DNA of 47,617 bases, taken from the NCBI GenBank assembly GCA_022865485.1, contig JALHSZ010000004.1, positions 1 through 47,617 of the forward strand, given 5' to 3'. The notes beneath the pieces are model-generated. The model was not told the origin of the DNA. It saw only the letters and a list, made by a program, of their open reading frames with translations, and made no database searches. The position numbers and the translations under genes were made by a program. How positions within the stretch are numbered: position 1 is the stretch's first letter; each line of letters opens with the position of its first letter. Below, piece by piece: positions 25,699 through 30,094 of the stretch. Source of the DNA: Dehalococcoidales bacterium. Lineage in GTDB: Bacteria > Chloroflexota > Dehalococcoidia > Dehalococcoidales > BS750m-G39.

Positions 25699-26304
25699 TT
25701 AGCCTGACACAATCTTAATTATACCAAGCAACTCCAGCCCGTGTATAACCATGCTCACGGCGATAGCCGCCAGCAGCAGGCTGAACACCCGTGAAATCGC
25801 CCTCAGCCCGCCCTGCCCCAGAAAACGGGAAACCCACTCTCCCCCGAGGAAGATAACCCAGGTGATGAGCATGTTCAGGGCGAAGGAGATAAGCACCATG
25901 TAGAGCGGATACTGCGTCGCCAGCAGCAACAGGGTGGTGATCGTGGCCGGACCTGCCGTCAGCGGGGTGCCGATGGGCACCACCGCCACCAGCTCCTCCT
26001 TTATGACCTTCACCATGTGGCCCGTGGTCATATACTGGACGGCGAACACCAGCAGGATTATTCCGCCGGCAATGGCGAAAGCGCCCACCGAAATGCCCAG
26101 CAGCTTCAAAATGAGCTGGCCCAGGAAAAGGAAGACCAGCCCGACCACAGCCGCCGTGATGACGGCCAGGTGAACCATGCGGCGGCGCTGGGGCCTGGCC
26201 ATATCCTCACTCAGGGAAATGACGTAGGGCAGAGTGCCCAGGGCGTCAATAACGATGAAAAGAGGCACAAAGGTGAAAACGAAGTCCTGTAAAAAGTCGC
26301 CCAT
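25699..26304 (-). CDS. MarC family integral membrane protein
   Basis: A 201-residue membrane protein with six predicted helices and the MarC signatures FVPLFIVIDALGTLPYVI near the start and VPIGTPLTAGPATITTLLLL in the middle. The biochemical role of the family is unsettled; an early link to multiple antibiotic resistance was not confirmed. It begins three bases after the GNAT gene and is therefore the last intact gene of the aminomutase cluster, where it might export or import a product or precursor. Confidence 0.85.
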   Translation of the reverse strand: MGDFLQDFVFTFVPLFIVIDALGTLPYVISLSEDMARPQRRRMVHLAVITAAVVGLVFLFLGQLILKLLGISVGAFAIAGGIILLVFAVQYMTTGHMVKVIKEELVAVVPIGTPLTAGPATITTLLLLATQYPLYMVLISFALNMLITWVIFLGGEWVSRFLGQGGLRAISRVFSLLLAAIAVSMVIHGLELLGIIKIVSG

Positions 26305-26307
26305 TTG

Positions 26308-26787
26308 CTATCCTATCCTTTTTTGCAGAATAATCTTATCATCGCCAGGGGCGTAGAAGTCGGGGAGGCGGGCAATAGCTTCGTAGCCATGATTTGCGTA
26401 AAAGCGCCTGGTCTTTTCGTAGCCCGGTTGGGACGAGGTCTCGATGACTATCAGCCTGCCTTTAGCCTCTTTGATTTTGTCCTCGGCATGAGCCAGCAAA
26501 GCGCCGCCTACGCCTTTGCCTTGCTTCTCCGCTGATACTGCCATCCAGTAAATGTCCCAGGTGCCTTCCGTCAGTGGTGCCGGGCCGTAGCAGATATAGC
26601 CGTTAATTACCGAATCAGCCTCAGAGACCAGGGTATTATAGCCGAAGCCGGCGGGGTCAGCCAGGTAGCTGTCCATGACCTCCTCGGCTACCACTACCTC
26701 AGCCGGTTTGAACTCGGGCGTGGCGCGCAGCAGTGCCATCAGGGATGTTTTGTCCCTTTTTAGCATGGGGCGTATCCTGACCGTCAT
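26308..26787 (-). CDS. GNAT family N-acetyltransferase
   Basis: A 159-residue single-domain acetyltransferase. The acetyl-CoA loop is EKQGKGVGGALLAHAE near residues 90-105, preceded by the WDIYWMAVS strand and followed by LIVIETSSQPGYEKTRRFY. The start has GGAGAGG seven bases upstream. Its first 89 bases overlap the end of the ATP-grasp gene before it, out of frame. As part of an operon with a lysine 2,3-aminomutase-like enzyme and two peptide-type ligases, it may acetylate the pathway product; it is too short to be AblB, the known beta-lysine acetyltransferase. Confidence 0.85.
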   Translation of the reverse strand: MTVRIRPMLKRDKTSLMALLRATPEFKPAEVVVAEEVMDSYLADPAGFGYNTLVSEADSVINGYICYGPAPLTEGTWDIYWMAVSAEKQGKGVGGALLAHAEDKIKEAKGRLIVIETSSQPGYEKTRRFYANHGYEAIARLPDFYAPGDDKIILQKRIG

Positions 26788-27778: not shown

Positions 27779-28767
27779 GGCGAGCACCTTTTCAGCGCGG
27801 CCTCGAGGACAGCCTGTATCAGCCCCTGGTGCGTCCAGCCCATTTTCTGGGCCATAATGATCAGGTCGCTGTAGCTGCCCAGTCCCGGCAGGGGGTTTAT
27901 TTCCAGAAAGTAAGGCACCCCATCGGGGCTGACCCTGAAGTCGATGCGGGCGAAGTCGCGGCAGCCTAGAACCTGGAACACCTTGAGGCTGGCCAGGGAA
28001 ATTCTTTCTTTAATCTCGTCGGCGAGCTTAGGTGGAGATTCATAGTCAACCAGGTTGAGGTAATCGCGCTTTACCTCCAGGGAGTAGACAAAGCGCTTCT
28101 CCTTATTTCTGGGTAAGATGCGCATTATGCCTGTTACCCTGGGTGGGGTGTTGCCGATAATGCCTACGGTAACCTCGTCACCGCTGATAAACTCTTCTAC
28201 CATCACCGGCTGGCGGTAATCGTTCAGGAGACGGTTTGCCTCTTTCGTTATCTGCTCCCGGCTCTCTACCACCGAGGTCAGGCGGATGCCCTTGCTCGAG
28301 CCTTCATAGGCAGGCTTGACGATGGCCGGGAAGGGGAATTGCTTCCAGTCTATCTTGGTCAGCTCTTCCTCATCGGCTATCAGCTGCCACTGGGGAGTAG
28401 CCACCCCCTCGGCGGCCACTAGCTTCTTAGCCAGCGGCTTGTCCAGGCAAACCGTCAGGCAATGGGAGTCCGAGCCGGTATAGGGAATGCCCAGCATCTC
28501 CAGGACGGCGGGCACTTGCGACTCGCGGCTGCGGGAGTTACCCCGCCCCTCGGCAATATTAAAAACGATGTCAACCTTCTCGCGAAGGATATTTTCCAGG
28601 AACTCCCCGCCCCCGCCCAGCAGCACCACCGAGTGTCCGGAAGCAGTCAGGGCGGCGGCGATAATCTCCACCGTCTCCCGGGAGTCGTACTCCTCAAGGG
28701 CATCTTCAGGACTATCTTCGTCCAGGGGCACGGAAACTTTAAGATCGTAGGCTAAGCCTATCCGCAT
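27763..28767 (-). CDS. ATP-grasp ligase, D-Ala-D-Ala ligase-like (first copy)
   Basis: A 334-residue D-Ala-D-Ala ligase-like ATP-grasp enzyme. Visible motifs are VDIVFNIAEGRGNSRSRESQ, PAIVKPAYEGSSKGI (ATP loop), VMVEEFISGDEVTVGIIG and YFLEINPLPGLGSYSDL (metal site). The start lies within the end of the aminomutase gene (29-base overlap) and has an AAGGAAG site. It is only distantly like the second ligase that follows, so the two probably use different substrates and may act in sequence, for example to add two amino acids to beta-lysine. True Ddl is less likely, given the operon context. Confidence 0.83.
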   Translation of the reverse strand: MRIGLAYDLKVSVPLDEDSPEDALEEYDSRETVEIIAAALTASGHSVVLLGGGGEFLENILREKVDIVFNIAEGRGNSRSRESQVPAVLEMLGIPYTGSDSHCLTVCLDKPLAKKLVAAEGVATPQWQLIADEEELTKIDWKQFPFPAIVKPAYEGSSKGIRLTSVVESREQITKEANRLLNDYRQPVMVEEFISGDEVTVGIIGNTPPRVTGIMRILPRNKEKRFVYSLEVKRDYLNLVDYESPPKLADEIKERISLASLKVFQVLGCRDFARIDFRVSPDGVPYFLEINPLPGLGSYSDLIIMAQKMGWTHQGLIQAVLEAALKRCSPCVPA

Positions 28768-30094
28768 CCCTGCTTCCTTCTTTCTTGGCCGGCACAGCCA
28801 CCTTGACCGGAACGGGCATCAGCATCGGTCTGGCTTTAGCCCTGGTGCGGGGGTTATGGCAGCGGTAGATATGGCCGCGGTAGTTCCTTACCAGAAGCTC
28901 ATCGCCAGTCTGGGCCATAATATAGTTGGGCTGTACCGGGACCTTGCCCCCACCCTGGGGGAGGTCAATGACAAAGGTGGGTACGGCCAACCCTGAGGTG
29001 TAGCCGCGCATGCCCTCGATTATCTTTAAGCCCACCTCTACGGGCGTGCGCAGGTGCTCCGTCCCCTCAACCTCGTCGCACTGGTAGAGGTAGTAGGGGC
29101 GCACCTTAATCTTGAGTAGCCCCTGGCACAATTTGGACTGTATCGCCACGCTATCGTTGATACCGCGCAGCAGAACGCTCTGGTTGTTCACCGGCACGCC
29201 GCTCCGCACCAGCCTATCGCAGGCGGCGGCCGCCTCCGGGGTGAGCTCGCGGTAGTGGTTAAAATGGGTGTTGAGCCAGATTGGGCCGTATTTAGACAGC
29301 ATAGCGCACAATTCGTCATCGATACGCTGGGGTAATACCACCGGAAATCTGGTGCCGATACGGATAATCTCAACGTGCTCTATCTTCCTGAGCAGGGAGA
29401 TAACACTCTCCAGGTGGGGGGTAGATAACGTTAAGGGGTCACCGCCGGAGATGACCACATCCCTGATGGTCTTGTGATTACGTATGTAGTCCAGCATGGC
29501 TTCAATCTCGGCAGGTGTGCGCATCCAGCCGCCGTGGCACCACTCCCGCTTGCGGGTGCAGTGACGGCAGAGCATGGGGCAGATATCGGTCAGCACCATT
29601 AAGACGCGGTCGGGGTAACGGTGCACCAAGCCGGGGACAACCGAGTCCCGCCTCTCCTCAAGAGGGTCTTCAAAGCCGATGCCGGCCAGGGCTATCTCGT
29701 CAAAGACGGGCACCGCCTGTTTCCTGATGGGGTCTTCGGAATTGTTGGGGTCAATCAGGGAGAGGTAATAGGGGGTTATCGCCAGCGGGTATTTAACGGT
29801 TACCAGCTTGAGCCTGGACTGCTCTTCAGCGGTCAGGGGTATATATCTGGCCAGCTCGTCGATGGTGGTAATACGGTTGCGGAAATGCCACTTCCAGTCG
29901 TTCCAGAGGCTATTTGGTATATGCCCAAAGAAACGTCGTCTCTGGGCGCTGGTACTGGGAGGCTCGTCCTCCCGACGGCCAACTATTAACATTTTGCCAG
30001 GAGGTTCTTCTTCGGCCGAAGCAGTAACATCTCTAAAATATTTTTCCGCCCCTAAGGCAGATTGACTTTCTGTGTTTATTGAAGGCGCTTTCAC
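28739..30094 (-). CDS. Lysine 2,3-aminomutase-like radical SAM enzyme (KamA family)
   Basis: A 451-residue radical SAM, PLP-dependent aminomutase. The cluster motif CxxxCxxC is at Cys172, 176 and 179. The PLP lysine is in GGGKVP (Lys384). Both aspartates that in clostridial lysine 2,3-aminomutase hold the side-chain amino group of lysine have counterparts, in YLYQCDEVEG (Asp340) and FVIDLPQGGG (Asp377). This supports lysine as substrate and beta-lysine as product. The last 50 residues are a basic, alanine-rich tail. It heads an operon with two ATP-grasp ligases, a GNAT and MarC, behind a consensus promoter. An EpmB-like role on elongation factor P is less likely because EpmB lacks these C-terminal residues. 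Confidence 0.88.
   Translation of the reverse strand: MKAPSINTESQSALGAEKYFRDVTASAEEEPPGKMLIVGRREDEPPSTSAQRRRFFGHIPNSLWNDWKWHFRNRITTIDELARYIPLTAEEQSRLKLVTVKYPLAITPYYLSLIDPNNSEDPIRKQAVPVFDEIALAGIGFEDPLEERRDSVVPGLVHRYPDRVLMVLTDICPMLCRHCTRKREWCHGGWMRTPAEIEAMLDYIRNHKTIRDVVISGGDPLTLSTPHLESVISLLRKIEHVEIIRIGTRFPVVLPQRIDDELCAMLSKYGPIWLNTHFNHYRELTPEAAAACDRLVRSGVPVNNQSVLLRGINDSVAIQSKLCQGLLKIKVRPYYLYQCDEVEGTEHLRTPVEVGLKIIEGMRGYTSGLAVPTFVIDLPQGGGKVPVQPNYIMAQTGDELLVRNYRGHIYRCHNPRTRAKARPMLMPVPVKVAVPAKKEGSRDADRLSLRS

Follow-up and report, generated by a model that had tools for sequence, protein, structure and literature searches.

The window analysed here is a stretch of 47,617 nucleotides from a Dehalococcoidales bacterium of the phylum Chloroflexota (GenBank assembly GCA_022865485.1, contig JALHSZ010000004.1, positions 1 to 47,617), and it carries a cassette in which a gene for a lysine 2,3-aminomutase-like enzyme (kamA) is followed by genes for two ATP-grasp ligases (AG1 and AG2) and a GNAT acetyltransferase. 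On balance, this cassette is probably a biosynthetic operon for a small peptide or amide that contains beta-lysine and is N-acetylated. A more specific version is put forward only tentatively, namely that wall-less Chloroflexota and Acidobacteriota make a widespread and so far undescribed metabolite, an N-acetylated beta-lysine peptide, with two dedicated ATP-grasp ligases, the GNAT enzyme adding an acetyl group that a linked deacetylase can remove. If this is true, wall-less, poorly understood and hard-to-grow Dehalococcoidia share a compact, unknown beta-lysine-peptide pathway with Acidobacteriota, the product is a new class of bacterial compound (e.g., a signal, protectant or metal ligand) made by an old paired ligase system, and the two D-Ala-D-Ala ligase (Ddl)-type enzymes in bacteria without peptidoglycan are accounted for. 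Since four short genes stand under one promoter, the question of the product is directly testable. A literature search, which many subscription journals lay outside, found no description of kamA together with a pair of ATP-grasp genes and a GNAT gene.

The aminomutase and the paired ligases

As the initial annotation had proposed, five genes form a tightly packed operon on the minus strand in the order kamA-AG1-AG2-GNAT-marC, and family searches agree with the name given to each. The first gene, kamA (28739..30094), encodes a radical S-adenosylmethionine (SAM), pyridoxal phosphate (PLP)-dependent, lysine-type 2,3-aminomutase that lacks the cysteine (zinc) segment present at the C-terminus of AblA. 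It overlaps AG1 (27763..28767) by 29 bp, AG1 overlaps AG2 (26699..27787) by 25 bp, and AG2 overlaps the GNAT gene (26308..26787; PF13508/PF00583 in profile searches) by 89 bp; a spacing of 3 bp then separates GNAT from marC (25699..26304), which encodes a MarC-family integral membrane protein (PF01914, 142 bits).

The KamA protein passes the KamA-family radical SAM model TIGR00238 (331.1 bits, cut-off 199.2). Its Asp340, Asp377 and Lys384 occupy the alignment positions of Asp293, Asp330 and Lys337 in the lysine 2,3-aminomutase structure 2a5h, which we take from established knowledge of that structure to be the two lysine-binding aspartates and the PLP lysine, and the claim that these residues are retained is thereby borne out. 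The equivalents of the cluster cysteines (Cys125/129/132, CxxxCxxC), Arg134, Asp293, Asp330 and Lys337 are kept in 74/74 cassette KamA proteins, a count that, like the other conservation counts given here, is not wholly independent, some rows being near-duplicates (L001 and L109 are one contig). Cys268 is mostly substituted, and none of the 74 cassette tails has the three cysteines of the C-terminal cluster (a structural zinc site), as compared with 40 of 61 other KamA proteins.

The two ligases are indeed different enzymes of the peptide-bond-forming type. Both pass PF07478 (Dala_Dala_lig_C; AG1 132.8 bits, AG2 107.5 bits, cut-off 24), and neither reaches the cut-off of the D-Ala-D-Ala ligase model TIGR01205 (159.1 and 135.9, cut-off 245.65). 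In trees they form two separate deep clades with one branch between them (support 97/93; 100% of bootstrap trees). The predicted structures are confident (predicted local distance difference test, pLDDT, of 91 for AG1 and 89 for AG2) except for the last 29 residues of AG2, whose coding region overlaps the GNAT gene, and both match D-Ala-D-Ala ligases over the whole length (AG1: Z 33.0, root-mean-square deviation 2.3, 295 residues aligned; AG2: Z 35.3, 2.0, 296 aligned). Only Ddl-type ligases appear among the fold matches listed, and the comparison therefore gives no pointer to other substrates. The fold is thus shared with DdlA, DdlB and the Van ligases, as are the ATP/Mg residues (K97, K144, E187, K215, R255, D257, E270, N272), which are kept almost everywhere. 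Unlike those enzymes, however, AG1 and AG2 lack the Glu15-Ser150-Tyr216 triad (by established knowledge of DdlB, the determinant of D-alanine selection), score under the D-Ala-D-Ala ligase cut-off and reside in a host that makes no peptidoglycan. AG1 retains the Glu15 equivalent and has Arg in place of Tyr216, while AG2 has lost both; overall, Tyr216 is found in 0/79 AG1 and 3/84 AG2 proteins, with Arg or Trp at this position in nearly all AG1.

Distribution of the cassette

The KamA protein was used to search genome contigs, and the neighbourhoods were then surveyed by tblastn. Among the window's own genome and 60 relatives sampled independently of the finding, 24 have a close KamA; AG1 adjoins kamA in 23 of these (the exception being L112 in G047), and most have the complete kamA-AG1-AG2-GNAT set. 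The linkage is not due to chance; the association of kamA with paired ATP-grasp genes is conserved, whereas its absence would by the initial annotation's own test have refuted the pathway. Almost all Chloroflexota loci with this type of KamA have the order kamA-AG1-AG2-GNAT, and the intergenic distances are short across cassette loci (medians of 29, 6 and 8.5 bases). The complete or near-complete genomes of genus g49 (1.7-2.1 Mb) carry kamA-AG1-AG2-GNAT with a major facilitator superfamily (MFS) gene upstream in 6/8, and 1.4-1.5 Mb genomes of genus g15 in the same family carry kamA-AG1 only. Beyond these, an AG2-like gene occurs in 88 of 247 Acidobacteriota genomes (E of at most 1e-30), frequently in tandem with AG1, and kamA is adjacent in 17 of 20 such regions, with the order AG1-AG2-GNAT-kamA or kamA-AG1-AG2-GNAT. 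The order in SAR202 is AG1-AG2-GNAT-kamA, and at an Omnitrophota locus kamA-AG1 is accompanied by an ATP-grasp gene of another kind. In both SAR202 and Omnitrophota, the cassette is followed by a third, dissimilar ATP-grasp-like gene (L030:9106-10269, after kamA; L031:10100-11110, after AG1).

Several observations weigh against the proposed biosynthetic operon. The score of KamA against the AblA equivalog model TIGR03820 (475.7 bits) is below the cut-off of 525.4, a shortfall attributed to the missing C-terminal cysteine cluster; the match stops at model position 364 of 417. Most cassette copies fall into one group of the KamA tree, apart from the solved enzyme, and on this tree the association with the ligases must have been gained or lost at least six times, so that, as far as these sequences indicate, different KamA lineages were paired with ligases more than once, or KamA was repeatedly lost from them. 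Dehalococcoides-like genomes have kamA-AG1 without AG2; kamA genes of this clade also occur without ligases (L006, L018, L112), and AG1-AG2-GNAT sets occur with no kamA nearby (L153:3232-5703, L150:8640-11153; order GNAT-AG2-AG1 or AG1-AG2-GNAT). The parts of the cassette are therefore separable, and in the kamA-less loci the ligase pair may also accept another amino acid. The comparison of L018 (7938-9823) with L010, which has the same surroundings, reveals an AG1-AG2-GNAT-amidohydrolase block absent beside an intact kamA.

Other occurrences were noted during the survey. In a Dehalococcoides-like genome (L101:4740-10087 and L103; G054, G018), genes for a Fur-family regulator and a zinc uptake system of the ZnuA type come after kamA-AG1, and AG2 and GNAT are missing there and in its sister genome. 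Named plasmid records yielded distant relatives only. A region of a Thioflavicoccus mobilis plasmid (L123:3557-10421) contains genes for a diaminobutyrate transaminase, SbnA, an ornithine-cyclodeaminase-like protein, a Ddl-type ATP-grasp enzyme, a divergent KamA and one more ATP-grasp-like protein, and probably represents a related diamino acid peptide pathway. The contig of L001 (JABMRW010000090.1) is titled Deltaproteobacteria, and its content is the same as that of a Chloroflexota contig (G009), so the public label is probably wrong.

Proposed pathway and closest known systems

The initial annotation had read the operon as a pathway that makes beta-lysine, ligates and acetylates it and moves it across the membrane as an osmolyte, wall precursor or small antibiotic-like peptide. 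The core of that reading is upheld by the lysine-type aminomutase, the two ligases, the acetyltransferase and their conserved linkage, whereas the wall precursor, the simple osmolyte and export by MarC are not. From the residues that are kept, KamA would convert L-lysine into beta-lysine (3,6-diaminohexanoate) using SAM and PLP. AG1 and AG2 would each use ATP to activate a carboxylate as an acyl phosphate and then couple it to an amine, so that beta-lysine becomes linked to one or two more acids resembling amino acids. The analysis shows that the enzymes are present, intact and linked, and from their families we infer the substrates, the partners, the order of the steps and the product. The GNAT enzyme would then cap or protect the intermediate or product by acetylating one of its amines. 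In some relatives the cassette is followed by a gene for a histone-deacetylase-like amidohydrolase, an arrangement suggesting that this acetyl group is removable. The product would finally be moved by an MFS or possibly a MarC transporter, with expression presumably controlled by a divergently encoded winged-helix regulator that acts on an inverted repeat lying between the promoters of the regulator and the operon.

The logic of the cassette, by analogy, is known from blasticidin-type clusters and negamycin, with other ligases and other genes. The blasticidin S cluster of Kitasatospora sp. NBC_00039 (L180) encodes the arginine 2,3-aminomutase BlsG, an ATP-dependent carboxylate-amine ligase and an MFS exporter, and it resembles the cassette in that a mutase of the lysine aminomutase family supplies a beta-amino acid, which an ATP-grasp ligase presumably couples and an MFS protein exports. 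It differs in having an arginine mutase (Thr at position 330), a single ligase of the L-amino acid ligase type and nucleoside core genes, and it contains neither paired Ddl-type ligases nor a linked GNAT. The negamycin pathway also forms beta-lysine and has an ATP-grasp gene in its cluster (PMC12154649), and in both respects it is like the cassette; its genes for a hydrazine-forming heme enzyme, lysine hydroxylation and N-methylation are absent from the cassette. The AblA-AblB system for the osmolyte N-epsilon-acetyl-beta-lysine shares the pairing of lysine 2,3-aminomutase and GNAT genes, but the cassette GNAT belongs to another family, its KamA lacks the C-terminal cysteine segment, and two ligases are added.

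Alternative explanations

It is unlikely that the substrate of the aminomutase is a different basic amino acid (e.g., ornithine or arginine), in which case the ligated unit would not be beta-lysine. That KamA falls under the AblA cut-off and lacks the C-terminal segment of AblA would be expected of such an enzyme, and it shares Val at position 295 with arginine mutases. However, the equivalents of Asp293 and Asp330 are invariant in the cassette copies, whereas Thr occupies position 330 in L180 and L157, two arginine 2,3-aminomutase relatives. Lysine is therefore the more probable substrate, and KamA scores far below the cut-offs of the arginine 2,3-aminomutase model (TIGR04468; 409.1 against 600) and of the glutamate-mutase model. 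Plain N-acetyl-beta-lysine as an osmolyte (an osmolyte was among the products initially suggested) is improbable, even though an aminomutase with retained lysine-type residues next to a GNAT follows the logic of the AblA-AblB pathway. The cassette GNAT has no match to AblB (TIGR03827) and was rejected as an AblB on this ground, and the same search found no AblB in the window's genome (a 1.19 Mb assembly, about 88% complete, which bounds all genome-wide statements made here) but gave matches above the cut-off in G018 and G054. These two relatives carry a complete AblA-AblB fusion (L102:4235-6496 and L178:7647-9872) at a locus separate from the cassette kamA, and the two conserved ligases would have no role in that pathway. 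A role in metal homeostasis, or a metallophore as the product, is also unlikely, marginally less so than the osmolyte. The zinc uptake genes of the Dehalococcoides-like loci, the related ATP-grasp/KamA pair beside siderophore-type diamino acid genes on the Thioflavicoccus plasmid and the cation-efflux genes found upstream of three cassettes all point in this direction. Most cassettes, however, have no metal-transport neighbour, the zinc link is confined to the Dehalococcoides-like genomes, where a gap of 131 bp separates AG1 from the Fur gene, and the window's regulator matches ArsR/SmtB only weakly, under the cut-off.

Genome searches for D-Ala-D-Ala ligases, Mur ligases, KamD and AblB served as tests of ALTERNATIVES. 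The best named relatives of both ligases are D-Ala-D-Ala ligases, which would suit enzymes of peptidoglycan synthesis, and a wall precursor had been among the products first considered. Nevertheless, MurC-F were found neither in the window's genome nor in seven related Chloroflexota, and no D-Ala-D-Ala ligase other than AG1 and AG2 was found in the window's genome, where two further weak matches lie in one frame of 1001 residues, the size of carbamoyl-phosphate synthase. A single Mur_ligase_M protein occurs in each of these eight genomes, as compared with six matches in an Acidobacteriota genome, and is probably folylpolyglutamate synthase. Together with the loss of the Ddl triad, these results led to the rejection of a wall precursor, which is scarcely credible here; subject to the incompleteness of the assembly, the gene content excludes peptidoglycan synthesis for this organism. 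A protein as the acceptor to which the ligases attach beta-lysine, as in elongation factor P (EF-P) beta-lysylation (EpmA/EpmB) or RimK tailing, is very improbable. KamA relatives do provide beta-lysine for EF-P and some ATP-grasp enzymes act on proteins, yet KamA is far under the cut-off of the EpmB model (227.6 against 369.3), the D-Ala-D-Ala ligase fold, which is a small-molecule one, extends along each ligase from end to end, and a dedicated GNAT with MFS or MarC neighbours suits a free metabolite better. Lysine fermentation by the Kam pathway was also considered and is unlikely, since a KamD protein query for lysine 5,6-aminomutase found no match in 12 Chloroflexota cassette genomes and did find the enzyme in both positive controls.

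Acetyltransferase, transport and regulation

The cassette GNAT is a conserved family whose closest solved relative is 2r7h (profile match E 2.8e-46), a structural genomics entry deposited as a "putative D-alanine N-acetyltransferase"; the name is the depositors' own, and no functional paper on 2r7h was found in the literature. MarC stands beside only a minority of cassettes (12 hits). In Pfam scans, 7 of 65 downstream proteins are MarC and 8 are histone-deacetylase-like amidohydrolases, and 11 of 46 upstream proteins are MFS transporters. The suggestion that MarC moves the product across the membrane is weakened by this patchiness and by the MFS transporters that are also common neighbours, and MarC was rejected as a dedicated exporter; from its distribution it is a variable accessory, and the neighbouring genes indicate that the product is probably exported in many cassette members. 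The histone-deacetylase-like amidohydrolase carries an N-terminal GNAT domain. This fusion gene is intact after marC in the nearest relative (L001), and the window retains a 25-codon remnant of it (84% identical) directly after marC (25598..25672, minus strand).

Upstream of the cassette, a divergent gene on the plus strand (30353..30661) encodes a MarR-like winged-helix regulator of 102 residues that is kept at this position in the window's relatives. The promoter that reads into kamA (30258..30285, minus strand) is TTGACA-16-TATAAT, which matches the consensus at 12/12 positions and has a TG ahead of the -10 box; 15/15 examined loci with an adjacent regulator (two of which are one contig) have a closely similar element upstream of kamA. 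A 22-base inverted repeat, TTCCTGTTATAATATACAGGAA, lies across the regulator's own -10 box (30207..30228); near-copies are present in L001, L002, L008 and L114, and the repeat is likely the operator. On its other side, the operon is adjoined by a gene for a secreted protein that has a TIG domain and is anchored in the membrane at its C-terminus (23614-25254, minus strand), and TIG-like proteins seem to lie near the cassette in L004 and L101 as well.

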